Source: Rhodobacter aestuarii | GTDB taxonomy: Bacteria > Pseudomonadota > Alphaproteobacteria > Rhodobacterales > Rhodobacteraceae | Direction of reading: 5' to 3' | DNA length: 64,000 nucleotides | NCBI RefSeq assembly: GCF_900156655.1 | Contig: NZ_FTOG01000006.1 | Location: forward strand, 124,001-188,000 | Shown here: positions 11,380 to 60,168 of the stretch, piece by piece | Position numbering within the stretch: the first letter of the stretch is position 1 | How the letters are laid out: the number at the start of each line of letters is the position of its first letter | Program-made: the position numbers and the translations under genes | The notes under the pieces: model-generated | Databases searched by the model: none | The model's input: the letters and a program-made list of their open reading frames with translations, nothing else | What the model was told of the DNA's origin: nothing

Positions 11380-11386
11380 TCAAACA

Positions 11387-14999: not shown

Positions 15000-15014
15000 T
15001 CTTACGCCCCTTCC

Positions 15015-18768: not shown

Positions 18769-18821
18769 GGGGCTTGCTCCGATTCTTGGCACGACTGGCC
18801 CCTCCTCGCGGTTGGCGCCAG

Positions 18822-18849: not shown

Positions 18850-18919
18850 CCGCGACGCCCGACACAAGTCTAGCGCGCGCTTGCGCGATCTCAAAGCGCT
18901 TTGACGCGGCGGAAAGCAA

Positions 18920-20685: not shown

Positions 20686-20770
20686 CGGGGCCTCACAGGC
20701 GAAAGGGGGCGTTGCCGCCCCCTCTATCTGCGTTCCGGTCTCTTGCAAAGCCTCGCGAGACCTCGCGCGC

Positions 20771-31913: not shown

Positions 31914-33221
31914 TCAGCCGATCCCGACGCCGCTGTAGTTGGCAAACCCCGCCGTTTTCGCCAGTTCCGGCGAATAGACATTGCGCAGATCAGCCATCAC
32001 GGGCGTCACCATCGTTTTTGCCAAACGCGACAGATCCAGCGCGCGGAACTCGTTCCATTCGGTCAAGACGACCACGACAGAGGCCCCCTCGCAGGCGTGA
32101 TAGGGGTCTTCGAACCAATCAACGGCGGGCAGCAAATGTTCCCCCTCGCGGCGGCCCTGCGGATCAACAACCCGCACAATCGCCCCGGCACCCACCAATG
32201 CCGGCACGATCGTTAGCGCGGGCGCGTCGCGCATGTCATCCGTATTGGGTTTGAACGTCACCCCAAGCACCGCAACGGTTTTGCCCGCAAGCCCGCCTTC
32301 GACCAGATCGGCGATTTTTGTCACCATCCGGCGCTTGATCGCCTCGTTGAGGTCGATCACCGTTTCGACGATCCGCATCGGCAAGGCATTGTCTTGGCCA
32401 ATCCGCGCAAGGGCCAGCGTATCTTTCGGGAAACAGGAACCGCCATAGCCCGGCCCTGCATGCAGGAACTTGTTGCCAATCCGGCCATCGAGGCCAATCC
32501 CGCGGGCGACCTCTTTCACATTGCCGCCCACCCGCTCACAAAGCGCGGCGATTTCATTGATGAAGGTGATCTTGGTCGCCAAAAACGCATTGGCGGCGTA
32601 TTTGATCAGCTCCGCGCTTTCCAGATCGGTGGTGATCACCGGATATTCGCGCAGATAAAGCGGGCGATAGACCGCCGCCATCACCTGTGCCGCACGATCC
32701 GTTTCAACCCCGACCACAACGCGATCAGGGCGCATGAAATCGTCAATCGCTGCCCCTTCGCGCAAGAATTCCGGGTTAGAGGCCACATCAAAATCTGCCT
32801 TGGGGTTTGCCGCCGCCATCACTTCGGCCACCCGCCGGTTGGTGCCCACAGGCACGGTGGATTTGGTGACAATCACCGTATAGCCGGTGATCGACTGCGC
32901 CACCTCTTCGGCGGCCGCGAAAACATAGGTGAGATCGGCATGGCCATCGCCCCGCCGCGATGGCGTACCCACCGCGATAAACACTGCATCAGCATCGGCC
33001 ACAGCGCTTGAAAGATCGGCAGTAAAAGACAACCGCCCGGCAGAGACGTTCTTTTCGATCAGCGCATCGAGCCCCGGCTCATAGATCGGCACTTCACCGC
33101 GTTCCAGCATGGCGATCTTTTCGAGGTTCTTATCGACGCAGATCACGTCATGGCCAAAGTCGGAAAAACACACACCCGACACAAGGCCAACGTAACCGGT
33201 TCCAATCATTGCAATTTTCAT
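31914..33221 (-). CDS. ugd: UDP-glucose 6-dehydrogenase
   Basis: A 435-residue enzyme oxidising UDP-glucose to UDP-glucuronate with two NAD+. The Rossmann start is MKIAMIGTGYVGLVSGVCFS. The active-site Cys lies in GPGYGGSCFPKD near residue 259, and the C-terminal domain begins VAVLGVTFKPNTDDMRD near 320. The start at 33221 has an AAGGAG ribosome site. The gene lies at the edge of the exopolysaccharide locus; with galU it would supply UDP-glucuronate, a plausible precursor for an acidic polymer. It shares no operon with its neighbours; a hairpin separates it from the RTX gene upstream. The GDP-mannose 6-dehydrogenase AlgD is a relative, but the start motif and length do not tell the two apart with full certainty. 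Confidence 0.92.
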   Translation of the reverse strand: MKIAMIGTGYVGLVSGVCFSDFGHDVICVDKNLEKIAMLERGEVPIYEPGLDALIEKNVSAGRLSFTADLSSAVADADAVFIAVGTPSRRGDGHADLTYVFAAAEEVAQSITGYTVIVTKSTVPVGTNRRVAEVMAAANPKADFDVASNPEFLREGAAIDDFMRPDRVVVGVETDRAAQVMAAVYRPLYLREYPVITTDLESAELIKYAANAFLATKITFINEIAALCERVGGNVKEVARGIGLDGRIGNKFLHAGPGYGGSCFPKDTLALARIGQDNALPMRIVETVIDLNEAIKRRMVTKIADLVEGGLAGKTVAVLGVTFKPNTDDMRDAPALTIVPALVGAGAIVRVVDPQGRREGEHLLPAVDWFEDPYHACEGASVVVVLTEWNEFRALDLSRLAKTMVTPVMADLRNVYSPELAKTAGFANYSGVGIG

Positions 33222-33243
33222 GCAGTCTTGCTCCTTTACGAGG

Positions 33244-33266
33244 AAGGAAGGCGGGCACCGCACCCG
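33244..33266. terminator. Hairpin between the RTX repeat gene and ugd
   Basis: A perfect 8-bp stem AAGGCGGG/CCCGCCTT (33244-33251 and 33259-33266) with a 7-base loop, just after the stop of the RTX gene. It lacks a clear T-run on the minus strand, so terminator strength is uncertain. Confidence 0.5.
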
Positions 33267-33278
33267 CCTTAAAATCAA

Positions 33279-36491: not shown

Positions 36492-37307
36492 TCAGGGGCG
36501 GACCTCGCCCCGCGCGGCAAGGAAGTCGAGCATCTGCGCATGATCGGGGGCGATCATCCCCAAGGTGCTCACCTGAGCGCGCACCGCCTGCCGCTCCCCT
36601 TCAACCTGCCCCCCAGCAAAGAGCAGCTTTTTCAGCCGGGTCTGGCGCAGCACATTGACCACCTGATGCGCCCCGGCCCGGCGGAGCCATTCCGCGCTGC
36701 GCCGCCCCATACGCGCGGCAAGCGCATTGCGCGGCACGGCAGCGGCATTCACCTGACGCTGCGATAGGCTGCCGGGCGGCGCGACATAATCAAGCCCCAT
36801 CACCTCGCATAAAGCTGCACAAAGCCCATCGGGATCGGTGCGCAGTTGCGCATAAGAGAGATAACTGACCTGACCGGGAAACGCCTCTTCCCAAGCCTGC
36901 GCATGTTTGTGAAACAGGCTCGCCTCGACCACATCCGGGAAACGCTGGGCCATTTCCGCAAGCGGCAGCCGCGCCTCGCCAGCCTTGCGATAGTGGAAAT
37001 AATGCGAAACGGCACGGTCCCAAGGATCGCGCAGCATGATCACCACCTTCGTTTTCGGCGCGGTCTGAAGTAGCGCGGCACGCGCTTCGGGCTTATGAAA
37101 AAGCGAAGGCGCCACCTCGACCCGGATGCCGTCCCGGTCGGGAAACTGCGCCCGATACCACTCGATCCCGCGCGAAAAGACCTTGTCGAAAAAGAAGGTT
37201 TCCTTCGTTTTTTCCGGCAAAACCACCTCGGGGCGGGTCCGTAGATAGGCATCAATCCAGGTGGTGCCGCATTTCGTCGGACCGACAAAAATCACATCAG
37301 GAAGCAT
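36492..37307 (-). CDS. Sulfotransferase domain protein (PAPS-dependent)
   Basis: A 271-residue protein of the Sulfotransfer_1/NodH-like class that moves sulfate from PAPS to hydroxyls. The PAPS 5'-phosphosulfate loop is FVGPTKCGTTWIDAYL near residue 8. The 3'-phosphate region is KTKVVIMLRDPWDRAVSHYF near residue 85. An Arg-rich C-terminal half follows. It is the last gene of the minus-strand exopolysaccharide operon, 11 bases after the Wzc-like gene. With the second sulfotransferase at 46,358 it suggests that a sugar in the polymer or its repeat unit is sulfated. The acceptor cannot be read from sequence. Confidence 0.9.
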   Translation of the reverse strand: MLPDVIFVGPTKCGTTWIDAYLRTRPEVVLPEKTKETFFFDKVFSRGIEWYRAQFPDRDGIRVEVAPSLFHKPEARAALLQTAPKTKVVIMLRDPWDRAVSHYFHYRKAGEARLPLAEMAQRFPDVVEASLFHKHAQAWEEAFPGQVSYLSYAQLRTDPDGLCAALCEVMGLDYVAPPGSLSQRQVNAAAVPRNALAARMGRRSAEWLRRAGAHQVVNVLRQTRLKKLLFAGGQVEGERQAVRAQVSTLGMIAPDHAQMLDFLAARGEVRP

Positions 37308-46357: not shown

Positions 46358-46984
46358 ATGCCGATTTTCCGCCTTGCCCAAAAAAACGTGCTGTTTCTTC
46401 ACATCCCCAAGGCCGGGGGCACGTCGATCGAGAGTTTTCTGTCCACCCAATCGGGGGAGTCTTTGCGGATGAAGCAAAATCATCTGCGCCTGCCCTGCGT
46501 GCCGCAACACTTCCACGGCGAACTGATTGAAACGCTGTTTTCAGCCGATTTCTTCGACTACTCCTTTTGCGTGACCCGCAACCCCTATGCGCGGTTGCTC
46601 AGCGAATACAATTACCGGATGGGGCATCGCCATTTCCCTTGGCGGCACCTGCCCGAACCGGGCTTTGCGCGCTGGGTGCGCTGGGTCTTCACGCAATACC
46701 GCCGCAACCCCTATATCTATTCCAACCATATCCGCCCTCAGAGCGCGTTCAGCATTGCCGGGACGGAGGCCTTTCGGCTTGAGGATCAGCAAGAGGAATT
46801 GATGGAACGGTTAAGCGCGCTTGCAGGCGTTGAAGCCGCCGCCCTTCCGCGCACGAACATGTCAAAGCAACGCGCCACCGCGATGGATCCGCAGACGGCA
46901 AAACTGATCTATGACTTCTACCGTGAAGATTTTGAGCGCTTTGGCTATGCGGAAGACAGCTTCGAACCACAACAAGACGCATAA
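46358..46984 (+). CDS. Sulfotransferase family 2 domain protein
   Basis: A 208-residue PAPS-dependent sulfotransferase of the Sulfotransfer_2 class (carbohydrate type). The PAPS loop is FLHIPKAGGTSIESFLS near residue 13. The second motif is CVTRNPYARLLSEYNYRM near residue 70. A Tyr/Arg-rich middle follows. The start at 46358 has an AAGGAG site. It is co-transcribed with the flippase, so its likely substrate is a lipid-linked repeat unit or the polymer itself. The two sulfotransferases in this window belong to different subfamilies. Confidence 0.9.
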   Translation: MPIFRLAQKNVLFLHIPKAGGTSIESFLSTQSGESLRMKQNHLRLPCVPQHFHGELIETLFSADFFDYSFCVTRNPYARLLSEYNYRMGHRHFPWRHLPEPGFARWVRWVFTQYRRNPYIYSNHIRPQSAFSIAGTEAFRLEDQQEELMERLSALAGVEAAALPRTNMSKQRATAMDPQTAKLIYDFYREDFERFGYAEDSFEPQQDA

Positions 46985-47031: not shown

Positions 47032-47652
47032 TCACCAATTGCACGCGCGCCGGAGCGGCACCATCGCGGCCCCTAACCCTGCCAAAGAGAACGAGGCCTC
47101 AAGCGGGCGATCCGCTAGCGAGGTCACGGAAAGCTGCACCGACCGCGCCCCCATGAGCTGCACCACGAAGGGCACGGCTTGTGAACCGATCATCAGCCCC
47201 AGCGTATCATCCGTCTCTGCCCGGCTAAACAGAACCTCGCGCGGGTCTTCGTTATCAAGGCCCACCATAACCTTCCCATAGTCAGCGACATCACTCAGCA
47301 CATTGCCGGGAAACCGCAGCCGAAGGCTCGTCCGGTTCTCGGAACAGGTCACGCTGAGCCGCGCGAAATCTTGTCGGTCAAAGAGCGTGCTCACCGGCGC
47401 ATCTGAATAGATCCCAACGCTCAGGGCGGCGGGCGTGTCGCCTTGCGCGGGCGTATCAATCAGCGCCCAGTTGTCCATCTCCCCGACACGACAAGGCACG
47501 TCCATGTCTTGGCAGCTTGTGCCCTCGACCGCGGCTTCGCTTGCCATCATCGCAGACGGAACACATAGGAGTGTCAAAACGAGAGCGGCCCGACCACAAG
47601 CCGAGTTAAAATCACGAAGGAACGCGCTGCGTGACGAGAGGGTCCGAGTCAT
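47032..47652 (-). CDS. VasI-like secreted protein, not in a T6SS cluster
   Basis: A 206-residue protein with a signal peptide-like stretch ALVLTLLCVPSAMMASEA near residues 24-41. The mature part matches the layout of type VI VasI proteins (PF11319): SVTCSENRTSLRLRFPG, then DYGKVMVGLDNEDPRE, then DDTLGLMIGSQAVPFVVQ and a closing AAMVPLRRACNW. The four Cys are arranged for two disulfides. VasI is normally a T6SS accessory. No T6SS gene is visible anywhere in this window. The start at 47652 has an AGGAGATC site. Its role here is unknown; it may be a periplasmic envelope protein. Confidence 0.75.
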   Translation of the reverse strand: MTRTLSSRSAFLRDFNSACGRAALVLTLLCVPSAMMASEAAVEGTSCQDMDVPCRVGEMDNWALIDTPAQGDTPAALSVGIYSDAPVSTLFDRQDFARLSVTCSENRTSLRLRFPGNVLSDVADYGKVMVGLDNEDPREVLFSRAETDDTLGLMIGSQAVPFVVQLMGARSVQLSVTSLADRPLEASFSLAGLGAAMVPLRRACNW

Positions 47653-48256: not shown

Positions 48257-49144
48257 ATGCGGGACTTTCAAAATGTCTCGGCGAAAGCCGAGGCAGTAGA
48301 GACTTATATTTCATCGGACCGAAATCGTCCGGCGACGCCAGAAATACATCATAACGATCACCCTGTCATTGAACCGCGCAAGCATAAGCGCAGTTCAAGA
48401 CGGTCGACCTTCATGGCGGCGACCCTCGTGGGCTTCGATATCGCTCCGCGCAATCCGGCGCGCGCATCGATTGCTCAGCCTGCGTGGGTCCATCAGGCGC
48501 CACCGCGCCCGGGGCGGCGCCGTCAAAGTCGCCGTAACGCGGCCTATCATCGTGCCAAACGCAGCTTTGATATCGTCTCGGCCTCGGCAGGGCTTCTCAT
48601 GCTTGCGCCGTTGCTTCTTGGCTGCGCGGCGGCGATCAAACTGACCAGCCCAGGCCCGGTTTTCTTTCGGCAAAATCGGTATGGACGGAAGGGCACGCCG
48701 TTCCAAATCTACAAGTTTCGCACCATGCGCACCGAACTGAGCGACAGTTCCGGGGTGCAGCAAACGGTGAAGGGCGATCCTCGGATCACCCCCGTCGGCG
48801 CTTTTTTGCGGCGCACCTCAATCGACGAATTGCCCCAACTCCTCAATGTGTTGGAAGGTACGATGTCGATTGTCGGGCCGCGCCCGCATGTGCCCAACAT
48901 GATCGCCGCAGGCGTGCGCTACGAAGATTTTGATCACCGTTACATGCGACGGCACGCCGTTTTGCCGGGGATCACCGGTCTCGCCCAGGTGCGCGGCTAT
49001 CGCGGAGAAACAGACACCTACGAAGCGGCGCGCGGGCGCCTTGATCATGACCTCGAATATCTGCGCACAGCGAGCTTTTGGGGGGATCTCAAGATCGTTT
49101 TCGGCACTTTGTCGAAAGAGTTTGGGCGCGGCTCGGGATACTAA
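48257..49144 (+). CDS. Initiating sugar transferase (bacterial sugar transferase, WcaJ/ExoY type)
   Basis: A 295-residue polyprenyl-phosphate sugar-1-phosphate transferase, which starts assembly of a lipid-linked unit. The first 100 residues are a polar, Arg-rich leader. Then comes KRSFDIVSASAGLLMLAPLL, the membrane anchor. The catalytic core has FQIYKFRTMRTE, then RRTSIDELPQLLNVLEGTMS and VGPRPHVPN, then LPGITGLAQVRGYRG. This is a short ExoY-like form without the N-terminal 5-TM part. The start at 48257 is 10 bases after GGGAGA; an internal Met at 48413 is possible. Its product would feed the flippase and polymerase of the adjacent operons. Confidence 0.92.
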   Translation: MRDFQNVSAKAEAVETYISSDRNRPATPEIHHNDHPVIEPRKHKRSSRRSTFMAATLVGFDIAPRNPARASIAQPAWVHQAPPRPGRRRQSRRNAAYHRAKRSFDIVSASAGLLMLAPLLLGCAAAIKLTSPGPVFFRQNRYGRKGTPFQIYKFRTMRTELSDSSGVQQTVKGDPRITPVGAFLRRTSIDELPQLLNVLEGTMSIVGPRPHVPNMIAAGVRYEDFDHRYMRRHAVLPGITGLAQVRGYRGETDTYEAARGRLDHDLEYLRTASFWGDLKIVFGTLSKEFGRGSGY

Positions 49145-49536
49145 GCCGCCCCTCGTCGGGTTACGAATTTTGCCCAGCCACCACCTGACCCAAAAAGGAG
49201 ATAGGCCACCAGAAACAAATTAACTGACCCTCAGAAAAGCATATCCTTCAAGACGACTACAGGATGGGCCGTGCCTTTTTGGCAGGGATGGCTTCGTCAT
49301 GGCGTTCGGTAACTTGCATGAACATGAGCGTCATGCGGTCCGGTTCTTTATGCCTTTCGTGTCGCGCGAAAGGTGCGCGCCCATCCGACGACCAAGACCA
49401 GAATGAACCGGCTTCCTAGCACGGAAGCTCTGAATCAAATATCGACCGAATAAACCTAGCTTGGCGCATTCTCCGTTTTAACACAACGGTTTCTTTTGTG
49501 CTCGGCCGCGGACTTTTCGGTTGGAAAGGACCGATA
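49145..49536. other. 392-base gap between the sugar transferase and glycosyltransferase genes
   Basis: No gene or terminator is evident. The plus strand has several T-rich patches. This gap may hold a separate promoter for the downstream block that ends with algL. I see nothing more specific. Confidence 0.4.
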
Positions 49537-50871
49537 ATGCTGAAGTCCAAACTGGCGAGTTTTCTTTCGCGCTCCACGTCGCAGAGCGTTCAGGCGATGA
49601 CCGAGCCCGATGTGCTGACACTCTCGCGCAACCAATCGCAAGAGTGCCAAAGTGATCCGTTGCGCCGCAAACCTGCGCGTCCGACCGAGCCGCGGAATGA
49701 AAAGTCCGAGATCAAACGTGAGCCCGTGCGCGCAACGGGGCGCCCGAAGATCACCTGCGTTGTCGGGCTTCGCGGAATTCCCGACGTTCCCGGTGGCATC
49801 GAAACGCACTGCGAGCAACTCTACCCCCGCTTGGCTGACTTGCGTCCCGAGCAGCAATTCGTGGTGGTTGGCCGTCGCCCAACAATCGGCCGTGCGAAAC
49901 GTGTCTGCGCGCAAAACCTCTATGTGATGCCCTTGGCCGCCGCGCAAAACCGCTACTTTGAAACCATCTCGAACACATTTCTTGGGGTTCTTGCAGCGCG
50001 GTTTCGCTTTGGTGCCGGCATGATTCATCTGCATGGAATTGGCCCCGGGCTCTTTGCGCCGCTCGCTCGCCTCATCGGTTTGCGTGTTGTGCTGACCCAT
50101 CACGGGGATGATTTCCTGCGCGCGAAATGGAACCGGTTTGCGAAATTCGTGCTGAAATCCGGAGAGCGGCTTGGCGTGTCCTCGAGCCATGCGGTGATTG
50201 CGGTTTCGGCCTCTTTGGCTGAGCGCCTGCGCGAAGACTATCCAAGCAAGGCGGAGGCGATCAATTACATCCCGAATGGCGCGGATCACATCTTGACCAC
50301 GTCAAACTCGGCCACCCGCACCCCCGAGGAATGGCGCGCACAGTTCGGCCTCCGTGGGCAAGATTACATCCTGTCGGTCGGGCGTCTGGTGCCCGAAAAG
50401 GGCTTCGCGGATCTGATCGAAGCCTATGGCCGCACCGATCTCCCCGCGAAACTGGTGATTGCAGGTGGCAACGGCGGCTCAGACCACGACAAAGAACTGG
50501 CCGCGCTTATCGCGGCGCGGGGCTTGCAAGATCGCGTTGTGATGACCGGCTCTGTGCCGCATGAAGGTGTCGCCGCGCTGATGAAAGGGGCACGCCTGTT
50601 CGTTTTGGCCTCGCATCACGAAGGGCTGCCGATCGTGGCGCTGGAAGCCTCGGCCATCGGCACGCCGGTGCTGCTGTCAGACATTACGGCCAACCGTGAC
50701 CTCGGGTTAGAGCAGGATCATTACTTCCCGAAAGGCAACATCTCTGCGCTGGCGCAAGTGTTGCGTACGCGCTGGAACGAGATGCCGCATCGCGACCTGC
50801 TGGCCGCGTTCAACTGGGGCGCCATTGCCCGCGACACCCATGCGCTTTATGCGCGTTTGGAAACCGCATGA
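49537..50871 (+). CDS. Glycosyltransferase family 4 protein
   Basis: A 444-residue GT4 with a polar N-terminal leader. The N-terminal domain begins ITCVVGLRGIPDVPGGIETH near residue 75, a motif seen in DUF1972/GT4 rhamnosyl- or glucosyltransferases. The donor domain has YILSVGRLVPEKGFADLIEA near residue 288 and SHHEGLPIVALEASAIGTPV near residue 370. The start at 49537 follows GGAAAGGACC. Its stop overlaps the next small gene by ATGA, so it heads the block that leads to alg8-alg44-algL. The transferred sugar is unknown. Confidence 0.9.
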   Translation: MLKSKLASFLSRSTSQSVQAMTEPDVLTLSRNQSQECQSDPLRRKPARPTEPRNEKSEIKREPVRATGRPKITCVVGLRGIPDVPGGIETHCEQLYPRLADLRPEQQFVVVGRRPTIGRAKRVCAQNLYVMPLAAAQNRYFETISNTFLGVLAARFRFGAGMIHLHGIGPGLFAPLARLIGLRVVLTHHGDDFLRAKWNRFAKFVLKSGERLGVSSSHAVIAVSASLAERLREDYPSKAEAINYIPNGADHILTTSNSATRTPEEWRAQFGLRGQDYILSVGRLVPEKGFADLIEAYGRTDLPAKLVIAGGNGGSDHDKELAALIAARGLQDRVVMTGSVPHEGVAALMKGARLFVLASHHEGLPIVALEASAIGTPVLLSDITANRDLGLEQDHYFPKGNISALAQVLRTRWNEMPHRDLLAAFNWGAIARDTHALYARLETA

Positions 50872-51074
50872 GGGCGGCAAAGGCCGACCACACACAGCAC
50901 AACACGTTGCGGCTCAGCCGTCGCAGCACGCTCAAAGGCGGTATCGCCCTGCTTTGCGTCTCAGCCGCACCCTTGCGGTTGGCTGTGGCGCAGGCGGCAC
51001 CTCCAATTCCCGTCACGCTGCGCACCGATAGTTCGCGCCGCCTGTCCGAGCTTATGGAGATGAGTATTGGTTGA
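50868..51074 (+). CDS. Tiny Tat-signal protein of unknown function
   Basis: A 68-residue frame that starts inside the glycosyltransferase stop (ATGA). Residues 17-26 (SRRSTLKGGI) form a twin-arginine export motif, and GIALLCVSAAPLRLAVAQA gives a hydrophobic core and an AxA-like cleavage site. The mature part would be only 25-30 residues, ending RRLSELMEMSIG. The next gene overlaps its end by eight bases. It could be a real exported peptide, or the two frames could be one gene split by a frameshift. No family is recognised. Confidence 0.55.
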   Translation: MRAAKADHTQHNTLRLSRRSTLKGGIALLCVSAAPLRLAVAQAAPPIPVTLRTDSSRRLSELMEMSIG

Positions 51075-51396
51075 ACGGATCGAGATCGGCAAAACACCAG
51101 ATGATGGCACCGGGGAAAGCCTGCGCAGCGCTTTTGAGAAGGTGAATGCGAATTTTGCCGAACTCGCAGCCGCCTTGGCTCGGGCAAGCGCCTCGGCGGC
51201 GCGCGCAACGCTGCCAAACGGAGGTTGGCCGGGCGAGTGGGTCGCGCGCCATCTGGCCGATAGACCGCCGCAAGGAACGCCGCCTCTGCTTGGTGCGCTT
51301 TGGGTGGACGTGACCACGCAAGAGGTCTGGATCTCGACGGGCACCGCCGCATCAACAGATTGGCGCCGCCTCATGCTGGAACGGCAGGAGGGCTGA
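51067..51396 (+). CDS. Small protein with phage-tail-like N-terminal motif
   Basis: A 109-residue frame that begins with TTG at 51067; GGAG lies nine bases upstream. The N-terminus has IEIGKTPDDGTGESLRSAFE then KVNANFAEL, close to a motif at the start of phage tail or neck proteins. The C-terminal LWVDVTTQEVWISTG is also tail-like. It lies between the tiny Tat gene and the beta-helix gene inside a polysaccharide operon, with overlaps and a 1-base gap, so it is not an isolated prophage remnant. It may be a surface attachment or carbohydrate-recognition module. If the Tat gene and this one were joined by a frameshift, the product would be exported. Confidence 0.65.
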   Translation: MVERIEIGKTPDDGTGESLRSAFEKVNANFAELAAALARASASAARATLPNGGWPGEWVARHLADRPPQGTPPLLGALWVDVTTQEVWISTGTAASTDWRRLMLERQEG

Positions 51397-51397
51397 G

Positions 51398-52651
51398 ATG
51401 GGACGCGAAATCCACATTTCCGGCGCGGGCAGCGGTGCGGGGCACAGTTGGCAAGACGCGATGCCGCTAAGCGCCCTCGAAGCCGCACTGGCTGCGATTG
51501 AGCCCGATGACGAGTTGCTGATCGGCTTTCCACGAGACCGAGAGACACCGCATTTTTGGCGCGAAACGGAGGCGGTGCTGCGCCGCTCGGGCCTTGCAAG
51601 CCGCCCGATAACAATCAGCTTCGGCTTTATCGGTGGCGATGGCACACTGGTCCCGGCAACCCCAGCAAACGGCTGGGCACAGCTTCGGCGCGGCGGCTCA
51701 GGATGGCCAAGCCGCACCGCCCCGGATCTAAAGGGGCCACCCTTCCTGCGCCTCGTCGATGTTGCATACCTCACGCTCTCTGGCCCGGTCGCGGAGGGCG
51801 CACCGCAAAACGGCCTGTTGTTGCTCGAAGGGGCGCTCGATAGCCTGACCTTGCGCGATCTTCACCTGCGCCATGCAGGGCGCGTTATCGAAACCACGCG
51901 CGACACCAACGTGACCCGTCTTTGCGTCGAGTCTTGCTCTGCCCTTGGGCTTGGGCGCGGTTTTGCGCGGTTTCACAGCCTGTCCGATGCGGTTTTTCGC
52001 GATCTCTGGCTGGACGCCGGGCTCACTGACGGCGGCGGCACCAACGTCTTACAACTCATCTCGGTCGTTGCCGGAGAGAACCTGCGCTTTGAAAACGTTA
52101 CCCTACGCAATGCGGTCAGCGCGATTGACGCTCAGGCGCGCGGCTCCAGTTACGTTCAGGGCGATGGTATTGTTTTAGAAGAAGAAACCCGCGCGGCGCG
52201 GTTCTTTAACTGCCATGCGGTGAATATGGGCGATGCCGGGTTTGACCTGAAATGCGATGGCATTGAGATGACCGATTGCTCGATGCATGGCTGCAAATAT
52301 GGCGTGCGCATCTGGCGCAACAACCCAAACAACAAACTGACCCGTGTGACCATGACGGCCATGCGCCCAAGGGCGCGCAATGCCGCCGCCTGCATGTGGC
52401 TTGGGGGGCAGGCAACCTTGACGGATTGCCACTTGATCGCTGGGGCAGGCAGTGCCGCAATCCGCTTTGGCAATGGCCCCGATACATCAGAGCGGCGCGC
52501 AACACTGATCGGCGGAGAGATTGATACCGCTGGTGGTGGGAGTTTTCTGGCCGGCGAACCGGGCGAGGCGGTGCTGCGCGACGTTCTGCTAGATGGCCGA
52601 CCGATCACCGGTCTGGCCCGTTGGGATGGGCAAACGGTGAGCTTCTCATGA
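51398..52651 (+). CDS. Right-handed beta-helix protein of the alginate-like cluster
   Basis: A 417-residue protein with repeated short beta-strand motifs typical of pectate-lyase-like folds: LTLRDLHLRHAGRVIETT, AARFFNCHAVNMGDAGFDLK and DGIEMTDCSMHGCKYGVRIW. In alginate operons the position before alg8 often belongs to a carbohydrate-active enzyme, such as the epimerase AlgG. The AlgG signature DPHD is absent here, so it is not a clear C5-epimerase. No classical signal peptide is visible. The start at 51398 has AGGAGGGCTGAG. Its stop overlaps alg8 (ATGA). Lyase, hydrolase or structural roles are all possible. Confidence 0.8.
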   Translation: MGREIHISGAGSGAGHSWQDAMPLSALEAALAAIEPDDELLIGFPRDRETPHFWRETEAVLRRSGLASRPITISFGFIGGDGTLVPATPANGWAQLRRGGSGWPSRTAPDLKGPPFLRLVDVAYLTLSGPVAEGAPQNGLLLLEGALDSLTLRDLHLRHAGRVIETTRDTNVTRLCVESCSALGLGRGFARFHSLSDAVFRDLWLDAGLTDGGGTNVLQLISVVAGENLRFENVTLRNAVSAIDAQARGSSYVQGDGIVLEEETRAARFFNCHAVNMGDAGFDLKCDGIEMTDCSMHGCKYGVRIWRNNPNNKLTRVTMTAMRPRARNAAACMWLGGQATLTDCHLIAGAGSAAIRFGNGPDTSERRATLIGGEIDTAGGGSFLAGEPGEAVLRDVLLDGRPITGLARWDGQTVSFS

Positions 52652-54216
52652 CAGACGTCCCACAGCATCGCCCCACATCGCCTTTCTCTCAACGGCTATG
52701 GGCACAGCCCGACATTTGGCATTGGTGGGCACTTTACTTTGGGCTTGCCACCGCCTTGTGGAGCACGGCCCTCACCCTGCCCCGCCCGGACGGGACAGTT
52801 CTTTTCTTCCTAACATTGGGCGGGCTTGCGGCCTGGCGCTACAGTTGGTGGAGCCTGCATCAGATCCGCGCGTTGATCTTTTTGCATCGGGTCTATCCAC
52901 GGTTGCGTGCCCGCGCCACAGCCGCCGCAGCTTACAAAAGCGTTCCGCATCTTTACGTGGTCGTACTGTCTTACGGCATGAGCCCGCAGATGATCGCGCG
53001 ATGCTATCTGGGCCTGTGCCGCGCCGCGTTGAATGCGAATGTCCCAACCACGATCATCGCCTCCGTCACGTCAAACCGCGATGTGCGCATTCTCAACCGG
53101 CTTTATGCCGATCTCGGCGCACCGACGCAGATCCGTTTTCACGCGCAGTTCCAAGACGGCAAAGGCAAGCGCCGCGCCATTTCAGAGGCGCTGCGCGCGA
53201 TTTCCCGCGATGCCCTGCCGCCCGGTGCTATTGTGACCTTGATGGATGGCGATGTGGTTTTGGCGCCCGATGCCTTTTCAAAATCGCTGCCCTTCTTTTT
53301 GGCCGATCCGGGGTTGGATGCGATCACCACCAACAACCGCGCCGAGGTCACGGGCACGCCGATCGCGCAACAGTGGTTCGCGCTGCGGCTCGCACAGCGC
53401 CACGCGCTTATGGCCTCGATGGCGTTGTCGAAACGCTTGCTTGTTTTAACCGGGCGCTTTTCCCTGTTTCGGGCAGAAATCGCCACTTCGGAGGCCTTTG
53501 TGCGGCGCGTCGAGACCGATCGGATCTCGCATTGGCGCCATGGCGAGATCACCTTTTTGACCGGAGACGACAAAAGCACTTGGTTTCAGGTGCTTTGTGA
53601 AGGCCGCCGGATGCTCTACTTGCCCGATGTCTATGCCACCGGGATCGAGGCGCTTCCTGCTCCGGGAAAATTCTTTCCGGCATCCAGCAAACTGATGACA
53701 CGTTGGTTTGGAAATATGCTGCGCGCGAATGGCCGCGCTATTGGGCTCGGCCCGCGCCGCGTTGGGCCCTTTGTTTGGTGGGCGCTGATTGATCAGCGCT
53801 TGTCAATCTGGACCGCGCTGACCGGCCCCATCTCGACCCTGTTCCTGTGCTTCTACTATAGCCCGGTCTTCGCGATTTATTATCTGGCGCTGGCCTTTGT
53901 GACCCGCGGCGTCATGTCGGCGATGGCTGGGGCCCATTACAAACGCTTCCACCCAAGCTGGCCGTTCTTGATGTATTACAACCAAGTCTGGGGCGGGATG
54001 CTGAAATCGATCCTGACCTACCACCTAGACCGCCAAAGCTGGACCCGCCAAGCGATCAAAACCCGCCATGCGGATCGGCTTTCCCGCACGACCGGTTGGG
54101 CCTTGCATGCCGCAACACTCGCCTGTTTCACACTCGCGGTTGGCACGATGATCGGCGTGATCACCGATGTGAGCCCCGGCACAACCACGGAAATTGCGCG
54201 CCTTCTACGACTTTGA
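52648..54216 (+). CDS. alg8: Alg8-like family 2 glycosyltransferase (mannuronan synthase-type)
   Basis: A 522-residue inner-membrane polymerase. N-terminal membrane segments flank residues 25-70. The GT2 core has VVVLSYGMSPQMIARCYLGL, DxD in LMDGDVVLAPDAF near residue 199, and the Alg8-specific FLTGDDKSTWFQVL near residue 304. The LMTRWFGNMLRANGRAIGLG motif is near residue 349, and the tail has LDRQSWTRQAIK. These match Alg8 of Pseudomonas and Azotobacter closely. Alg8 polymerises GDP-mannuronate and needs Alg44. The start at 52648 overlaps the beta-helix stop (ATGA). Whether the donor is GDP-mannuronate or another uronate is not proven, because algD is not in the window. Confidence 0.93.
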   Translation: MTDVPQHRPTSPFSQRLWAQPDIWHWWALYFGLATALWSTALTLPRPDGTVLFFLTLGGLAAWRYSWWSLHQIRALIFLHRVYPRLRARATAAAAYKSVPHLYVVVLSYGMSPQMIARCYLGLCRAALNANVPTTIIASVTSNRDVRILNRLYADLGAPTQIRFHAQFQDGKGKRRAISEALRAISRDALPPGAIVTLMDGDVVLAPDAFSKSLPFFLADPGLDAITTNNRAEVTGTPIAQQWFALRLAQRHALMASMALSKRLLVLTGRFSLFRAEIATSEAFVRRVETDRISHWRHGEITFLTGDDKSTWFQVLCEGRRMLYLPDVYATGIEALPAPGKFFPASSKLMTRWFGNMLRANGRAIGLGPRRVGPFVWWALIDQRLSIWTALTGPISTLFLCFYYSPVFAIYYLALAFVTRGVMSAMAGAHYKRFHPSWPFLMYYNQVWGGMLKSILTYHLDRQSWTRQAIKTRHADRLSRTTGWALHAATLACFTLAVGTMIGVITDVSPGTTTEIARLLRL

Positions 54217-54284
54217 TCCCTCCCCTTTGTTCCGGTGGCCCACGGCTTCGGGGCCACCCGCAACCAGATGCGAGACACCAAAGG

Positions 54285-55739
54285 ATGAATACACAGAACA
54301 ATTCTCAGCCAGAGGCGCTGCCACGCGTTGAAATGCTCGGCCGCTCGCCTCTGCGCAGCCGACCCGTTCATCTCAATTTTTTTGTCGTTTTCGACAACAC
54401 CGTGCATGAAGGCGTGTCGTTCACTCTGGATGAAATGACCGTCTATGCCGCGCCGGCGGCACAAGAAGGCGGCGACATACCGCCCTTACCCAAACCCGGC
54501 GAAAGCCTGCAAGCGCTGCTGCGGATCAACCTGCATGGCTTCACTTTTGAGGTCAAAACCCGTGCAATCTTGCGCCAGCACGGGATGGAAGCGTCGGACC
54601 CAACGCTGACCTTTGCCTTTGAAAACCTCGCCCCAACGCATCGTGAGGCGCTGCGCCGGATCATTCGCAGCTATCACGCGGGGCTTGTTGCTTCGCCCAG
54701 CGATTTATTGGACCGCTCCGACGATCCGACCTTTGCCGAAACGACCGACGGCGCCGAGCAAAACACCACGCGTGGACGCAATCTGCTGACGCTGGGTCTG
54801 TCATTTGCGGTGATCCTTGGGGCGCTTGGCTTCATTGCCACCGCGCTTTACGACCATGCCGTTTTTGTGCCTGCGCGCTTTGCCACCGTCACGGCGGCAC
54901 GGCTTGATCTGCGTGCGCCGGAAATGGGGCAAGTCTCAAGCCGGATCACTGCGGTGGGCACGCGCGTGGCGCGCGATGCACCGCTCTATTCAATCTCTGT
55001 CGATGCGCTCGACACCGAAAGGTTCGAGACAACGGCGAAGCTGGAAGCGTTGTCGATTGCTTCAGCTTCGGGAGGCGGCGTGGCCACAGCACCGCACCAG
55101 GACACGCCGCCGACCGCCGCGCCGGGCTACCTGCAACCCGCGTTTTCCCTCGCCTCACTGGATACTCTGGAATTCGCCTCCGATGATGGCGATCTGGCCT
55201 TTGCCGCGGATGCAGAAGCCAGACCAGCTTCCGTCAACGCAGCAGCGGGAGAGCCCGCCGTCGGCCAAGCGGAAACCCGCGCCCTGCTCATGGCCCGCCA
55301 ACGCGCGCTTGAAATGCGCAAAACCGCGCTTGATGCCTATGCGCCCTGTGACTGCATCGTGCAGTGGTATCAAGAAGATGGGGCATGGGTTTTGGCCGGT
55401 GATCTGGTGATGACCCTGACGCGCGCCGACCCTGAGGCCTTGCGGATCGAGACCTTGGTGCCTGTGGCCGATGCGCGCAATCTGGCCGTGGGCCAAGGCG
55501 GAGCCGTCGTTACCCCGATTTCGGGGGCGCCGTTTCACGCAACAATCGAGCGGATCACCCTCACACCAGATGCACAACCCCGCTTTGGCTTTCCAGACAG
55601 GCTGCGGCGCGAAGACACGCTGGCCTCGGTTCTGCTCAAGGCGGACCAGCCACTTGATGCCGCGCAAATCGGGCAACCGCTGGAAGTCGTACTGCGCCGC
55701 AATTCTCTGGTTGCACGGCTGTTTGGGTCGGGCGCATGA
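54285..55739 (+). CDS. alg44: Alg44-like PilZ/HlyD-type alginate co-polymerase
   Basis: A 484-residue protein. The N-terminus (residues 10-120) is a PilZ-like domain, then one membrane segment near residues 173-193 (LTLGLSFAVILGALGFIATA), then a periplasmic HlyD-like domain (FATVTAARLDLRAPEMGQVS). This is the Alg44 layout; Alg44 binds cyclic-di-GMP and activates Alg8. The RxxxR half is present (Arg20-Arg24). The (D/N)xSxxG half looks degenerate at LDEMTVYA, with Met where Ser is expected. The start at 54285 lies within AAAGG, with tight spacing. It sits between alg8 and algL; its stop overlaps algL (ATGA). Confidence 0.86.
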   Translation: MNTQNNSQPEALPRVEMLGRSPLRSRPVHLNFFVVFDNTVHEGVSFTLDEMTVYAAPAAQEGGDIPPLPKPGESLQALLRINLHGFTFEVKTRAILRQHGMEASDPTLTFAFENLAPTHREALRRIIRSYHAGLVASPSDLLDRSDDPTFAETTDGAEQNTTRGRNLLTLGLSFAVILGALGFIATALYDHAVFVPARFATVTAARLDLRAPEMGQVSSRITAVGTRVARDAPLYSISVDALDTERFETTAKLEALSIASASGGGVATAPHQDTPPTAAPGYLQPAFSLASLDTLEFASDDGDLAFAADAEARPASVNAAAGEPAVGQAETRALLMARQRALEMRKTALDAYAPCDCIVQWYQEDGAWVLAGDLVMTLTRADPEALRIETLVPVADARNLAVGQGGAVVTPISGAPFHATIERITLTPDAQPRFGFPDRLRREDTLASVLLKADQPLDAAQIGQPLEVVLRRNSLVARLFGSGA

Positions 55740-56911
55740 GGGGGCACGTTCAGGCCGCGCTTTTGGCCATGCTGCTTCTTCCCTCCCCGCTCGAAAGCCA
55801 AACCACCGCCCCGCGGCCAACCGGGGCCTCTGTCTTTCCGGTGCGCGAAGCGGTGGATGTCTCTCGTTTCAAGGTCACCAACCGGGCGGCGAGCTTTTTG
55901 GATTTGCCCGCGCGCCGCGCGGCTCTGAAAACGGCGAACACCCCGCTCCTACTGGACGAGATTGCCAGCGCAAAATTCGGAATGAGTTGCCGCGATGCGA
56001 TGGCCCTGCCAATCCCCGAGCCCGGTTTTACCGTGCCCGGATTCTATGTTGATCGCGCCGGCTGGCGGGATGCGGTGCAGGTGTTCATCGGCTTTGAAAA
56101 AACGGTGAGCAACTTGGCAAATGCGCAGCTGGTGGCGGAGGATGACTACCACGCCCAGTGTCTTGTCGATCTGCTGAGCAAATGGGCGCAAGCAAAAGCG
56201 CTTGAGAATTTTGGCTATAGCCCGGATGAACCGCAGGCTTGGTACACAGTGGAAAGTGCGCTTTTCGCGGCGGCCTTCGCGCTTTCGATGGTGCGAGATC
56301 AACTACCAGATCGGCAAGGCGATCTGGCAGAAATCGACGCGTGGATGGTCCGCCTTGCGCGCGGACATTCCGCGATCAGCGGCCTGCCGAGCACGGCTTG
56401 CTGCAACAACCACTTCTACCGTCGCGGGCTCTACGCAGCGATCATCGGCATCATGGCCGAGGACGATGCGCTGTTTCAATATGGTGCGCGCGCCTATCTG
56501 ACCGCGCTGGATTTGGCCTCGGCCGATGGTTGGCTCAAGCTGGAAATGATGCGCGGGCGTCGGGCCGCGCATTACCAAAACTTCGCCACGCTTTACCTTG
56601 TTTTTCTGGCCGAACTGCTCGAGTCACAAGGCTATGACGCCTATGCAATGCGCGGCACACACGGAGCGCGGATGGGTGACATTGCGGGGCGCGCGATTGA
56701 TGCGATCATCACGCCCGAGGTTGTGCTTGCCCATGGCGGCTCGGGGGAGCAGATCACCCCAATGGAACGGGACCCCCAATTTTTGGTTTGGCTGGAACCC
56801 TATGCGCATCGGGTGGATGACCCGCGGATCGATGACCTACTGAAAGAACGTCGCCCGCTTTACAATCGTGGCCTGGGCGGATCTTTGACGCTGCTTTTCA
56901 TGCCCAATTAG
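55736..56911 (+). CDS. algL: AlgL-like periplasmic alginate lyase (PL5 type)
   Basis: A 391-residue periplasmic enzyme with a signal peptide-like N-terminus (AALLAMLLLPSPLESQ, no strong AxA). The catalytic residues known from Pseudomonas AlgL are all present: Asn/His in CNNHFYRRGLYAA near residue 223, and Arg with Tyr seven positions later in RGRRAAHYQNFA near residue 278. The substrate-binding WAQAKAL is near residue 150. In alginate producers AlgL clears polymer from the periplasm and edits chain length. It is the last gene of the block, followed by a bidirectional terminator. Confidence 0.9.
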   Translation: MRGHVQAALLAMLLLPSPLESQTTAPRPTGASVFPVREAVDVSRFKVTNRAASFLDLPARRAALKTANTPLLLDEIASAKFGMSCRDAMALPIPEPGFTVPGFYVDRAGWRDAVQVFIGFEKTVSNLANAQLVAEDDYHAQCLVDLLSKWAQAKALENFGYSPDEPQAWYTVESALFAAAFALSMVRDQLPDRQGDLAEIDAWMVRLARGHSAISGLPSTACCNNHFYRRGLYAAIIGIMAEDDALFQYGARAYLTALDLASADGWLKLEMMRGRRAAHYQNFATLYLVFLAELLESQGYDAYAMRGTHGARMGDIAGRAIDAIITPEVVLAHGGSGEQITPMERDPQFLVWLEPYAHRVDDPRIDDLLKERRPLYNRGLGGSLTLLFMPN

Positions 56912-56935: not shown

Positions 56936-56966
56936 CAAAAGCCGCGCGAATTGCGCGGCTTCTTTT
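56936..56966. terminator. Bidirectional terminator between algL and galU
   Basis: An 8-bp stem AGCCGCGC/GCGCGGCT (56940-56947 and 56953-56960) with loop GAATT. TCTTTT follows on the plus strand and CTTTTGC on the minus strand, so it can end both convergent operons. Confidence 0.9.
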
Positions 56967-56981: not shown

Positions 56982-57896
56982 TCACTCAGCTGCAGTCCGA
57001 GCGACGCGCAATGCCTCGCGCTCAATGATCATTTCATGCAGAAATTCGTTGAATTCCTCCCGCAGATCATCGCGCGCCAAGCCAAAGGCGACCGTCGCCT
57101 GCAAGAACCCCGCTTTGGAGCCGCAATCATAGCGCTGACCACGAAAGCGGAAACCATAGACCGGATTGCCAACGGCAATCTCTTCGGCGATCGCATCGGT
57201 CAGTTGGATTTCACCGCCCGCGCCCTCTTTTTTCTTGTTGAGGTTCTGCATCACCTTGGGCGTCAGAATATAACGCCCGATCACCGCAAGGTTCGAAGGC
57301 GCCTCCTCGGGTTTGGGTTTTTCAACCATCCCTTTCACGCGCACGAGCGAGGACATATCTTCGGCAATATCCAAAACGCCGTAGGAGGCGGTTTGCTCGG
57401 GCGGAACTTCCATCGCGGCAACGACATTTCCGCCGGTTTCCGCATGCGCTTCGATCATTTGCTGCAAGCAGGGTTTGTCTGCTGCAATGACATCATCGGT
57501 CAACAAAACGGCGAACGGCTCATTGCCAATCAGACGCCGGGCGCACCAAACGGCATGGCCAAGACCAAGCGGCTGGTTTTGCCGGACATAAGCGATGGCG
57601 CCAGAATCCATATTGGAGGTTCTAAGCGTTTCAAGAAGCTTGGTTTTGCCTTTGCGGCGCAAAGACGCCTCAAGCTCGGGCGCATCATCGAAATAGTCTT
57701 CCAGCGCGGATTTCCCACGCGAGGTGACGAAAATGAATTCCTTAATCCCTGCCGCCCGCGCTTCATCAATGGCGTATTGGATCAGTGGGCGGTCCACCAG
57801 AGTCAGGATCTCTTTCGGGATCGACTTGGTGGCGGGAAGGAACCGGGTTCCCAAACCAGCGACCGGGAAGATCGCCTTTTTGACCTTACGTTGCAT
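56982..57896 (-). CDS. galU: UTP-glucose-1-phosphate uridylyltransferase
   Basis: A 304-residue enzyme making UDP-glucose from UTP and glucose 1-phosphate. Motifs are FPVAGLGTRFLPATKSIPKE near residue 10, LTDDVIAADKPCLQ near 131 and KGMVEKPKPEEAPSNLAVIG near 190, with the Lys/Asp set of the family. The start at 57896 is the only early Met. UDP-glucose from GalU is the substrate of Ugd, whose gene lies at the other end of the locus; together they make UDP-glucuronate. It is divergent from nothing and has its own 226-base upstream region. Confidence 0.96.
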   Translation of the reverse strand: MQRKVKKAIFPVAGLGTRFLPATKSIPKEILTLVDRPLIQYAIDEARAAGIKEFIFVTSRGKSALEDYFDDAPELEASLRRKGKTKLLETLRTSNMDSGAIAYVRQNQPLGLGHAVWCARRLIGNEPFAVLLTDDVIAADKPCLQQMIEAHAETGGNVVAAMEVPPEQTASYGVLDIAEDMSSLVRVKGMVEKPKPEEAPSNLAVIGRYILTPKVMQNLNKKKEGAGGEIQLTDAIAEEIAVGNPVYGFRFRGQRYDCGSKAGFLQATVAFGLARDDLREEFNEFLHEMIIEREALRVARTAAE

Positions 57897-58123: not shown

Positions 58124-59959
58124 TCAGCCAAAGGCAAATAAAAAGGCGAGGCTATCAAGACCATCATCATCAATGCGGATCACATCTTCCCCGGCGGCAT
58201 CTCCATATTGCGCCGAGAGGTCGATATAGGTTCGCCCCCCGGACACCCGGATCAAGGCATCTCCATTATCCAAAATGCCGTTCGCATTGGTGTCGAGATC
58301 GGTGAAACTGTCGATCAACTCACCAAAGCCCGTGAGCACGATCCGGTCGCCGTCGCGGGCATCAAAATCTGTCAACCGCTCAGAACTGAACGCCAAATCT
58401 GCAGTGAACACAAAGGCATCTGCGCCGCCGCCGCCCTTGAGCGTATCGGACCCGGCGCTCGCAATCAGCGTGTCGTCCCCCGCCCCACCTTCCAGCGTGT
58501 CGGAACTCTCTCCGCCATCAAGCAGATCATCGCCATTATCGCCGCGCAAAAGATCTGAGCCGTCTCCGCCTTCAAGCGTGTCGTCATCATCGCCGCCTTC
58601 AAGGCGATCATTGCCGTCATCGCCTTGCAAGAGGTCATTGCCATCGGCACCTTTAAGCGTATCGGCCCCGCCGCCACCGGCGATCATATCCGCGCCGTTT
58701 TCGCCCTCAAGCCGGTCCCGCCCGTTGTCGCCAAGGATGGTATCATCGCCCTCCCCGCCGCGGATCGTGTCATCCCCGCTGCCGCCGGAGATCAAATCAT
58801 CGCCTTTTTCACCCTCAATCTTGTCATTGCCGCCAAGACCTTCGATCACATCGGCCTCATCGGTGCCGCGCAAATCATCTGAATTCCCGGTCCCCGTGAT
58901 GGGCGCAACCTCCACCGGATCAGGGGCGCTTACGGGGGCCTGATCGGCGACCGTCGTGACGGCCGCTGTTGTCTCGGTCCAGTCTTCGTAGGCCTGCCCA
59001 GCCTCGGCATCGGTCCAAATCACCGCCTGCTCAGAACGATCGATCAGCCAACCCTCCGGGATCGCATTGCCGACAAAGCCAATATCGGTTGCATACCACG
59101 TCTCGTGATACAGGCTGGAATCGTCGATTTTCACCACCGCATTGGTGCCTGACATAGTATTGCCGGAAACCAAAACCCCTTGTGCCCCAATCACCCGCAG
59201 CGCCGCATTGCCACTGTCTGTGATGGTGTTTCCGTCCAAAAGCACATTGCCTGCTTCCCACTGACTGCCACTGTCAAAGAAGCCGGGGGGATAGTGTTGC
59301 TCGGCCGTGTAGCCGCCGACCTCAATCGCCGTATGGCCCGCGCCCGTGATGGTATTGCCGCGCAAAATCAGATCGGTGGAACCGCCCTTGAGCATGATCC
59401 CAATATAGGGGCTATCGGTGATCGTGTTGTTCTCAATCACAACACGGTTGGCCCCAACGCAGTCTATCCCGGCCTCGGTCGGGCCGCCACCGGTGATCAC
59501 ATTGCCGCTGAGCGTGACATCTTCAGCTTTTGAAAGCTTGATCCCGTCGCCCGCCCCGCGTTCGATGAGACAATCCGCAATCACCACATTGGAGGCGAAA
59601 TTGGTCCCGCTGTCTGTGCCATGGACATGCACGACCTGCCGGGTCGAATCATCGCTGCCCACCAGCACGAAACCGGAAACCTCAATATAGTCGGCCCCGG
59701 CGATCTCCAGCGTATCTGCCGCCGCATCGGCGGGCCGGATCAGCGCCGCACCTTGGCCATCTGCAGACACAAGCTTGATCGGAGCCCCTTCCGCACCGCT
59801 GTTCCGAAAGGTCACGTTTTCAATATATTCGCCCGCACCAACCAAGATCGTATCGCCCGGTTGCGCCGCATCCACCGCCGCTTGGATGGTGGCAAAGGGG
59901 CGCGCCGCACTGCCGTCGCCCCCCTCGGCGGCAGCGGCGGAAACATAGATATCAGACAT
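58124..59959 (-). CDS. Beta-helix plus RTX secreted protein (AlgE-epimerase-like architecture)
   Basis: A 611-residue protein without a signal peptide. Residues 1-330 form a right-handed beta-helix (pectate-lyase/periplasmic copper-binding type): DAAQPGDTILVGAGEYIENV, then repeats such as VVIENNTITDSPYIGIML. Residues 360-506 carry RTX calcium-binding repeats (GGSGDDTIRGGEGDDTI type). An EF-hand-like loop, DTNANGILDNGD, lies near residue 560. Secreted AlgE epimerases have this two-part layout, but the DPHD catalytic motif is not present here. It is likely exported by type I secretion. It may bind or modify the exopolysaccharide. The start at 59959 (MSDIYVSAAAA) has a weak ribosome site. Confidence 0.82.
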   Translation of the reverse strand: MSDIYVSAAAAEGGDGSAARPFATIQAAVDAAQPGDTILVGAGEYIENVTFRNSGAEGAPIKLVSADGQGAALIRPADAAADTLEIAGADYIEVSGFVLVGSDDSTRQVVHVHGTDSGTNFASNVVIADCLIERGAGDGIKLSKAEDVTLSGNVITGGGPTEAGIDCVGANRVVIENNTITDSPYIGIMLKGGSTDLILRGNTITGAGHTAIEVGGYTAEQHYPPGFFDSGSQWEAGNVLLDGNTITDSGNAALRVIGAQGVLVSGNTMSGTNAVVKIDDSSLYHETWYATDIGFVGNAIPEGWLIDRSEQAVIWTDAEAGQAYEDWTETTAAVTTVADQAPVSAPDPVEVAPITGTGNSDDLRGTDEADVIEGLGGNDKIEGEKGDDLISGGSGDDTIRGGEGDDTILGDNGRDRLEGENGADMIAGGGGADTLKGADGNDLLQGDDGNDRLEGGDDDDTLEGGDGSDLLRGDNGDDLLDGGESSDTLEGGAGDDTLIASAGSDTLKGGGGADAFVFTADLAFSSERLTDFDARDGDRIVLTGFGELIDSFTDLDTNANGILDNGDALIRVSGGRTYIDLSAQYGDAAGEDVIRIDDDGLDSLAFLFAFG

Positions 59960-60168
59960 GGCACGACTTTCTGTTCGGGCAATTTGAGGGCGCAAGGCGA
60001 TTAACGAAGTTTAACAAATATGTGGATTACATGCGCCTTTCCTGAGCTTTTGCTGGCAAAAAAGATGAGCGCCGCCCGTCAAAAAGCGCTAAGGCACTAG
60101 AATGATCGCGGAGAAGGCACCTGCAAGGAACCATAGGCAATTGCCCTTTTCTCAAGCAGGCAATCGCA

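Follow-up and report, generated by a model that had tools for sequence, protein, structure and literature searches.

The window analysed here, 64,000 nucleotides of a Rhodobacter aestuarii contig (NZ_FTOG01000006.1, positions 124,001 to 188,000), contains a block of four genes that run in the same direction, from a beta-helix protein through a membrane synthase resembling Alg8 and a partner resembling Alg44 to a PL5 polysaccharide lyase resembling AlgL (Table 1). The balance of the sequence comparisons tips towards a complex of the Alg8/Alg44 family encoded by 51398-56911 that would use UDP-glucuronic acid (UDP-GlcA), not GDP-mannuronic acid (GDP-ManA), and would most likely make beta-1,4-glucuronan (polyglucuronic acid). 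This proposal draws on the fold class, family and clade of the synthase, the dehydrogenase linkage of its relatives, the lack of a detectable AlgD and the loss of the PilZ signature, all established by computation. The frames for the sugar phosphotransferase, the glycosyltransferase of family 4 (GT4), the synthase and the lyase, which an earlier note on this DNA had reported, are present, and Pfam returns the families as first read; the beta-helix gene coupled to the synthase was absent from that note's text.

Table 1. Features of the block and of its surroundings, with window positions (GT2, glycosyltransferase family 2)
Feature	Position	Strand	Basis
Right-handed beta-helix protein, coupled to synthase; tailoring enzyme possible	51398..52651	+	Pfam Beta_helix 3.9e-7
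Alg8-like membrane GT2 synthase, residues F168, Q169, N230, V266	52648..54216	+	Pfam Glyco_tranf_2_3 3.9e-28
Alg44-like adaptor with degenerate PilZ region	54285..55739	+	Pfam HlyD_3 2e-7
PL5 (AlgL-like) polysaccharide lyase	55736..56911	+	Pfam Alginate_lyase 4.8e-27
GC-rich hairpin, then T-rich stretch, possible transcript end	56943..56965	+	read from sequence
GalU, UTP-glucose-1-phosphate uridylyltransferase (UDP-glucose supply), convergent	56982..57896	-	NCBIfam galU 340 bits, above cut-off
Ugd, UDP-glucose 6-dehydrogenase (UDP-GlcA supply), 18 kb from block	31914..33278	-	Pfam, PDB match 4a7p
Beta-helix and RTX-repeat protein, likely extracellular	58124..59971	-	domain scan; homologue adjoins module in L028
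Initiating sugar phosphotransferase (PHPT)	48257..49144	+	Pfam bacterial sugar transferase 1.8e-64
GT4 glycosyltransferase	49498..50871	+	Pfam Glycos_transf_1 1.8e-29

Overlaps of 4 nt join the beta-helix gene to the synthase gene (52648-52651) and the adaptor gene to the lyase gene (55736-55739). The synthase start at 52648 is an ATG within a longer frame, which is listed from 52621, and the Alg44-like frame, ending at 55739, has its first in-frame ATG at 54285. The Alg8 motifs quoted in the earlier note, TGDDKSTW, RWFGNMLR and LDRQSWTRQ, are indeed found in the translation of 52648-54213, many of their positions being invariant across homologues. The beta-helix protein of 51398-52651 has no homologue in the other compared loci at E 1e-6, and its single-sequence AlphaFold2 model, with a pLDDT (predicted local distance difference) score of 37, is too poor for use. 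As a possible counterpart of AlgG, the beta-helix epimerase of the periplasm in alginate systems, it has the Beta_helix family match but no signal peptide discernible by eye. Single-sequence searches of the PDB returned no match for the Alg8-like (limit 0.01), Alg44-like (0.1) or beta-helix (0.1) protein.

Which nucleotide sugar could feed such a synthase? The genome (G000; 31 contigs totalling 3.84 Mb, with completeness rated at 100%) yields five matches to PF03721, two of them full-length and above the cut-off. The one in the window scores 590 bits against UDP-glucose dehydrogenase (4a7p) and 205 bits against GDP-mannose dehydrogenase, AlgD (1mfz); for the second the values are 601 and 140 bits. 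The best match to an AlgD query reaches 191 bits, as against 409-971 bits in all six AlgD-linked control genomes. Because we know of no route to GDP-ManA without AlgD, alginate is not expected in this genome. The Alg8 homologue is the only one encoded, and the full alg operon elsewhere that the earlier note had named as a refuting result was not found. As that note had observed, classical partners are not next to the module: the 20 window proteins scanned with Pfam include none of AlgD, AlgK, AlgE, AlgX, AlgI, AlgJ and AlgF, a statement which for AlgI and AlgF covers these 20 proteins alone, as no whole-genome search was made for them. Genome-wide, AlgX/AlgJ (PF16822) is without a match, the same model matching in four of the six AlgD-linked controls and in one of ten clade genomes; AlgE (PF13372) is likewise without a match, a weakly controlled result since only one of 14 control genomes matches and no AlgD-linked control is among them; and the single AlgK-type Sel1 match, at 23.1 bits, lies below the cut-off of 30.7.

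To place the synthase among its relatives, 115 synthase loci, the window included, were compared. A search of 121 genomes, G000 among them, found 12 with an Alg8 homologue at 1e-10; a named-genome scan contributed the best 80 of 565 confirmed stretches, picked by similarity to the query alignment; and to these were added ten stretches of 17-20 kb from the first search, six plasmid loci, and 18 of the 25 places found in a draw across the phylum, where a strong match was obtained in 24 of 398 genomes. Two loci are repeats (L147 of L028, L143 of L069). Within 6.5 kb of the synthase, the best dehydrogenase is Ugd at 51 loci, AlgD at 42 and neither at 22, labels that were checked against the PDB on one locus each: L021 for AlgD (AlgD 422 bits, UDP-glucose dehydrogenase 239) and L031 for Ugd (UDP-glucose dehydrogenase 565 bits, AlgD 210). 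An Alg8 homologue is present in nine Rhizobium plasmid records; the four of these that were read, L108-L111, are AlgD-linked.

Halomonas, Billgrantia, Salinicola and their kin carry an operon of Ugd, Alg8, Alg44, a PL14 lyase (PF21294 at 1.2e-64 in L031), one or two PL5 lyases and a Sel1 protein. With L031 as query, Ugd is present in 46 of the 47 other Halomonas-type loci, Alg8, Alg44, PL14 and PL5 in 47 each and Sel1 in 45, counts which record presence within the stretch and not gene order; Caenispirillum (L049) has this gene set too, but with Ugd placed after Alg44. The syntenic counterpart of the window is L028, recorded as Maritalea mobilis, with GalU directly upstream of the synthase (54-56% identity), adaptor, lyase and a beta-helix/RTX protein. 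In the stretches read, the Alg8-Alg44-PL5 core occurs without an AlgD or Ugd match in L028, L029, L030, L037 (only 0.4 kb upstream shown), L018 and L185. This recurrence, together with the genome searches for AlgE, AlgX/J and Sel1, which gave no match above cut-off, supports the description of the block in the earlier note as a minimal, unstudied uronate-polymer synthase.

Two trees of the synthases agree with each other: a quick one of 78 rows, and a careful one of 59 of the 115 loci, from which near-copies, the majority of Halomonas rows and two long rows (L019, L020) were excluded. The careful tree places the window synthase in a clade of 19 rows (support 100/98) with 12 Ugd-linked and six other unlinked rows, while all 33 AlgD-linked rows lie outside it, as groups of 28 and 5. 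A thirteenth Ugd-linked row, L086, stands just outside with L073, L151 and L155 (23 rows, 98/91). The window synthase is 31-40% identical to the aligned AlgD-linked synthases, with which it shares the motifs but not the clade.

The same division appears in the catalytic core, at three positions adjoining the GKR, DGD and TGR motifs. Among the 113 rows counted, position 230 is N in 58/58 clade rows and E in 43/43 rows of the two AlgD-linked clades; position 168 is F in 58/58 as against R in 41/43; and position 266 is V in 57/58 as against T in 43/43. Because L069 is counted twice, the 58 clade rows represent 57 separate records, and the clade membership of rows outside the careful tree was taken from the label or the quick tree; 41 of the 43 rows of the AlgD-linked clades are labelled AlgD. 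The remaining 12 rows have N230 in L019, L020, L073, L151 and L155, F in L086, Q in L100 and E in five, and L105, outside the count, has E230, T266 and Q168 and would make a 44th E230 row. Tested against the clade residues F168, Q169, N230 and V266, the window synthase carries all four.

A fold search with the synthase was also tried as a test of the donor and set aside, since the nearest folds use several different donors, namely UDP-GlcA, UDP-N-acetylglucosamine (UDP-GlcNAc) and UDP-glucose, and include a mannosyltransferase, so that the comparison cannot settle the question. Hyaluronan synthases of Chlorella virus and Xenopus, which use UDP-GlcA and UDP-GlcNAc, are among these folds, and hyaluronate is also degraded by the PL5 lyase Smlt1473 (PMC8511899). 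Both points would fit a synthase that joins UDP-GlcA to a second UDP-sugar in a hyaluronan-like or other alternating polymer. However, identity to the hyaluronan synthases is only 13-15%, and cellulose and chitin synthases and the mannosyltransferase appear in the same list; the homologue Alg8 of Pseudomonas aeruginosa makes a homopolymer; and PL14, which the Halomonas operons encode, is a family of uronan lyases. We regard an alternating polymer as unlikely.

Does the split between the two synthase groups extend to whole genomes? When 27 genomes were searched with an AlgD query, the six AlgD-linked controls scored 409-971 bits, the top value coming from the genome that supplied the query; G082 scored 407, and none of the remaining 20 exceeded 273. 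Among the 18 clade genomes, which are 17 of these 27 plus G705, an AlgD-like gene is found in one and Ugd in 17, and in 16 the locus scoring highest with the AlgD query also matches the window Ugd, at 373-1003 bits. Three N230 genomes from outside the clade (G104, G190, G332) are without an AlgD-level match. For a second set, 346 genomes from the same family as G221 were searched; 25 have an Alg8 homologue at 1e-30, with 27 synthases in all. Of these, 26 have E230 and one, in G705, has the full N230 pattern; 23 of the 24 E230 genomes have an AlgD-level match. G705 has none (219 bits), and its Alg8-Alg44-PL5 genes stand without an Ugd or AlgD match in 20 kb. Residue 230 agrees with the AlgD test in 22 of the 23 new genomes of this set, which are 23 and not 25 because G221 (L146) and G710 (L106) were already in the first. 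The G221 synthase stands beside that of Rhizobium sp. T1473 in the tree, and the family is suggested to be Rhizobiaceae, to which both known glucuronan producers belong.

Several observations weigh against a glucuronan synthase. The metagenome-assembled genome (MAG) of L030 has an AlgD-like dehydrogenase on another contig (311 bits against AlgD, 208 against UDP-glucose dehydrogenase; 273 with the AlgD query), and that of L029 is without Ugd at 1e-60, its best match to the AlgD query being 94 bits. G082 (L020), with N230 and outside the clade, has AlgD, and G678 has E230 yet no AlgD-level match (127 bits). The AlgD limit of at least 327 bits was chosen after the scores had been seen, from the gap between 219 and 327, and the tests are correlated by descent. 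In G519, a member of the clade, AlgX/J gives a weak match, above the cut-off at 44.6 bits and covering part of the model. In the window, Ugd lies 18 kb away, and UDP-GlcA also serves other purposes; resemblance in fold to hyaluronan synthase is no guide to the donor; and the nearest solved relative of the lyase, A1-III, is an alginate lyase. Two NCBIfam models score below their cut-offs on the lyase, 'polysaccharide lyase' with 114 bits and 'poly(beta-D-mannuronate) lyase' with 99.

Some of these points would suit mannuronan (alginate) as the product after all, with GDP-ManA supplied by a dehydrogenase not recognised here: the homology to Alg8, Alg44 and AlgL, the proximity of the lyase to A1-III and the AlgD-like gene of the L030 MAG. 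Set against them are a genome without an AlgD-level gene, the position of every AlgD-linked synthase outside the clade with the attendant residue split, and the lack of above-cut-off matches to AlgE, AlgX/J and Sel1, which together make alginate quite improbable. The term 'alginate-type' in the earlier note is not supported as a statement on the product, as no AlgD was found and the synthase clade is linked to UDP-glucose dehydrogenase; it holds as a statement of homology only.

Residues 47-387 of the lyase align with PL5 A1-III (PDB 1hv6, 143 bits; 7fhu, 104 bits), and its hydrophobic N-terminus resembles, by eye, a signal peptide. The four AlgL catalytic residues that the earlier note had listed are kept in this alignment as N225, H226, R273 and Y280, the four PL5 catalytic positions. 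Catalytic residues of the family are partly given in PMC8511899 and PMC8829089. In keeping with a glucuronan, the PL5 enzyme Smlt1473 degrades poly-beta-GlcA (PMC8511899), and the PL14 enzyme vAL-1 degrades glucuronic acid chains (PMC8145301).

For the adaptor, the 'Alg44 layout' of the earlier note stands in part, the HlyD portion being present and PilZ giving no Pfam hit at E 0.05. The PilZ signature for cyclic di-GMP (c-di-GMP) consists of RxxxR and DxSxxG; in the window protein the alignment shows the second R of the former and the D, S and G of the latter replaced. RxxxR and DxSxGG are kept in five aligned Halomonas-type Alg44 proteins and in L018, and the signature is partly changed in L028 and L029. 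Pfam finds PilZ in L031 at 1.7e-8, in L028 below the cut-off only, and in neither L029 nor the window. The window protein may thus act without c-di-GMP control.

Loss of the PilZ signature, the lack of a detected export partner and the patchy spread of the family (the 12 of 121 genomes given above) could also be expected if the block were a remnant of alginate genes, decayed or borrowed, that yields no working product. Yet all frames are open, the 4-nt overlaps are kept, the catalytic motifs of the synthase and the catalytic residues of the lyase are intact, and the block is conserved in L028 at the synthase identity given above, where the PilZ region is altered too; decay is accordingly a very unlikely account.

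The exopolysaccharide region around the block offers a further explanation, in which the module would be an accessory transferase and lyase of a neighbouring Wzx/Wzy polymer. Genes for PHPT, GT4, Wzx, Wzy, Wza and Wzc lie near the block, and L028 similarly adjoins Wza, Wzc, Wzy, GT4 and sulfotransferase genes. But the cores of L029, L030, L037, L018 and L185 are without counterparts of those genes across the 12-21 kb that were read, and the fold is that of a membrane synthase; we consider such an accessory role very unlikely. The PHPT and GT4 of the window are probably parts of the region's Wzx/Wzy pathway and not of the module, because neither has a match across the 21 kb of the syntenic L028 block.

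Other features of the region may be noted. Sulfotransferase genes at 36492-37307 and 46358-46984 flank the Wzc-Wza-Wzy-Wzx cluster and therefore suggest that its exopolysaccharide is sulfated, and a VasI-like gene, of a type associated with type VI secretion, lies within the polysaccharide region (47032-47652). Between the GT4 and beta-helix genes, 50868-51396 holds two short frames, one of 68 aa with a Tat-like SRRSTLKG stretch and a 4-nt overlap with the GT4 stop, the other of 109 aa beginning with a IGKTPDDGTGESLRSAFEKVNANFAEL stretch, a motif known from phage tail proteins. The hairpin behind the lyase is not among the sites listed by a terminator scan. Beyond GalU, the architecture of the beta-helix/RTX protein resembles that of secreted mannuronan epimerases; the epimerase motif DPH was not seen by eye, and a 46% homologue adjoins the module in L028.

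Side groups of synthases add variety to the family. G023, a genome of the same family as G000, has a synthase that the tree does not separate from the one on the Loktanella salsilacus plasmid plas2 (L112), which at 8555-21332 carries an alginate-like operon with dehydrogenase, synthase, nucleotidyltransferase, beta-helix, MBOAT and AlgF genes; this dehydrogenase is assigned to AlgD by way of L021, which has an identical synthase in the tree. On a Jannaschia sp. M317 plasmid (L113, 8528-21332) an AlgD-linked synthase shares its operon with NosD and 'alginate lyase family' genes, no gene within the stretch being annotated for acetylation. Two Geminicoccus loci and two MAGs (L094, L095, L097, L100) form a further group without AlgD or Ugd within 6.5 kb, with E at position 230 in three and Q in one. 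In L019 an N230 Alg8-Alg44 pair (7595-11641) adjoins a PL14 lyase in a genome without an AlgD-level gene, and is possibly another UDP-uronate synthase outside the clade.

If the block does make glucuronan, GalU and Ugd would supply UDP-GlcA, which the Alg8-like protein would polymerise and thread through the inner membrane, with the Alg44-like protein as a periplasmic partner that in this lineage would not be switched by c-di-GMP. The PL5 lyase may rid the periplasm of misplaced polymer, the role that AlgL has for alginate, and for exit across the outer membrane the Wza gene 10.5 kb upstream is a candidate only. More broadly, and with a little less assurance than an even chance would warrant, we suggest that a second branch of Alg8/Alg44, found in many Halomonadaceae and scattered Alphaproteobacteria, makes beta-1,4-glucuronan from UDP-GlcA, that it represents the missing bacterial glucuronan genes, at least partly annotated as alginate, and that residue 230 (N or E) marks the donor. 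Were this right, it would provide candidate genes for bacterial glucuronan and, in two natural synthase groups that differ at few fixed catalytic-core positions, a means of testing the choice between UDP-GlcA and GDP-ManA. It would also correct 'alginate' labels such as those of Halomonas smyrnensis, where genes are predicted as 'Alg8' and 'alginate lyase' (PMC4523562).

Among the open-access papers that the literature searches listed, we recognised none linking Alg8-type genes or this clade to UDP-GlcA or glucuronan. The term itself is used for epimerised alginate in PMC10850567 and appears in an enzyme table of PMC6780248; cyanobacteria have no Alg44 architecture according to PMC4594306.

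How does the locus compare with known systems? The alginate operon of Pseudomonas and Azotobacter has the order algD-8-44-K-E-G-X-L-I-J-F-A. The window resembles it in its Alg8-type GT2 synthase, its Alg44-type HlyD partner and its PL5 lyase with conserved catalytic residues, but differs in being without AlgD, AlgE, AlgX/J and AlgK signatures, in the lost PilZ signature, in the clade and core residues of its synthase, and in a lyase placed directly after alg44. To our knowledge, hyaluronan synthases have no Alg44 or lyase partner, and those of Chlorella virus and Xenopus differ from the window synthase by the low identity given above. Reduced alginate operons as such are already known, since 'atypical' ones without algKE or modification genes are described in PMC7112194; they share with the window a reduced gene set around the synthase, and were classed as alginate through hidden Markov model searches and gene proximity, 'algD' occurring 0 times in the main text. 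Bacterial glucuronan is known from Sinorhizobium meliloti M5N1CS and Peteryoungia rosettiformans, whose polymer corresponds to the beta-1,4-polyglucuronate predicted for the window and whose biosynthesis genes were still stated to be unknown in a 2023 paper (PMC10180729). The Halomonadaceae operon found here differs from the window in that Ugd is one of its genes, that it also encodes a PL14 lyase and a Sel1 protein, and that its PilZ signature is intact, but shares with it the synthase clade and its residues, the Alg44 partner and the PL5 lyase.

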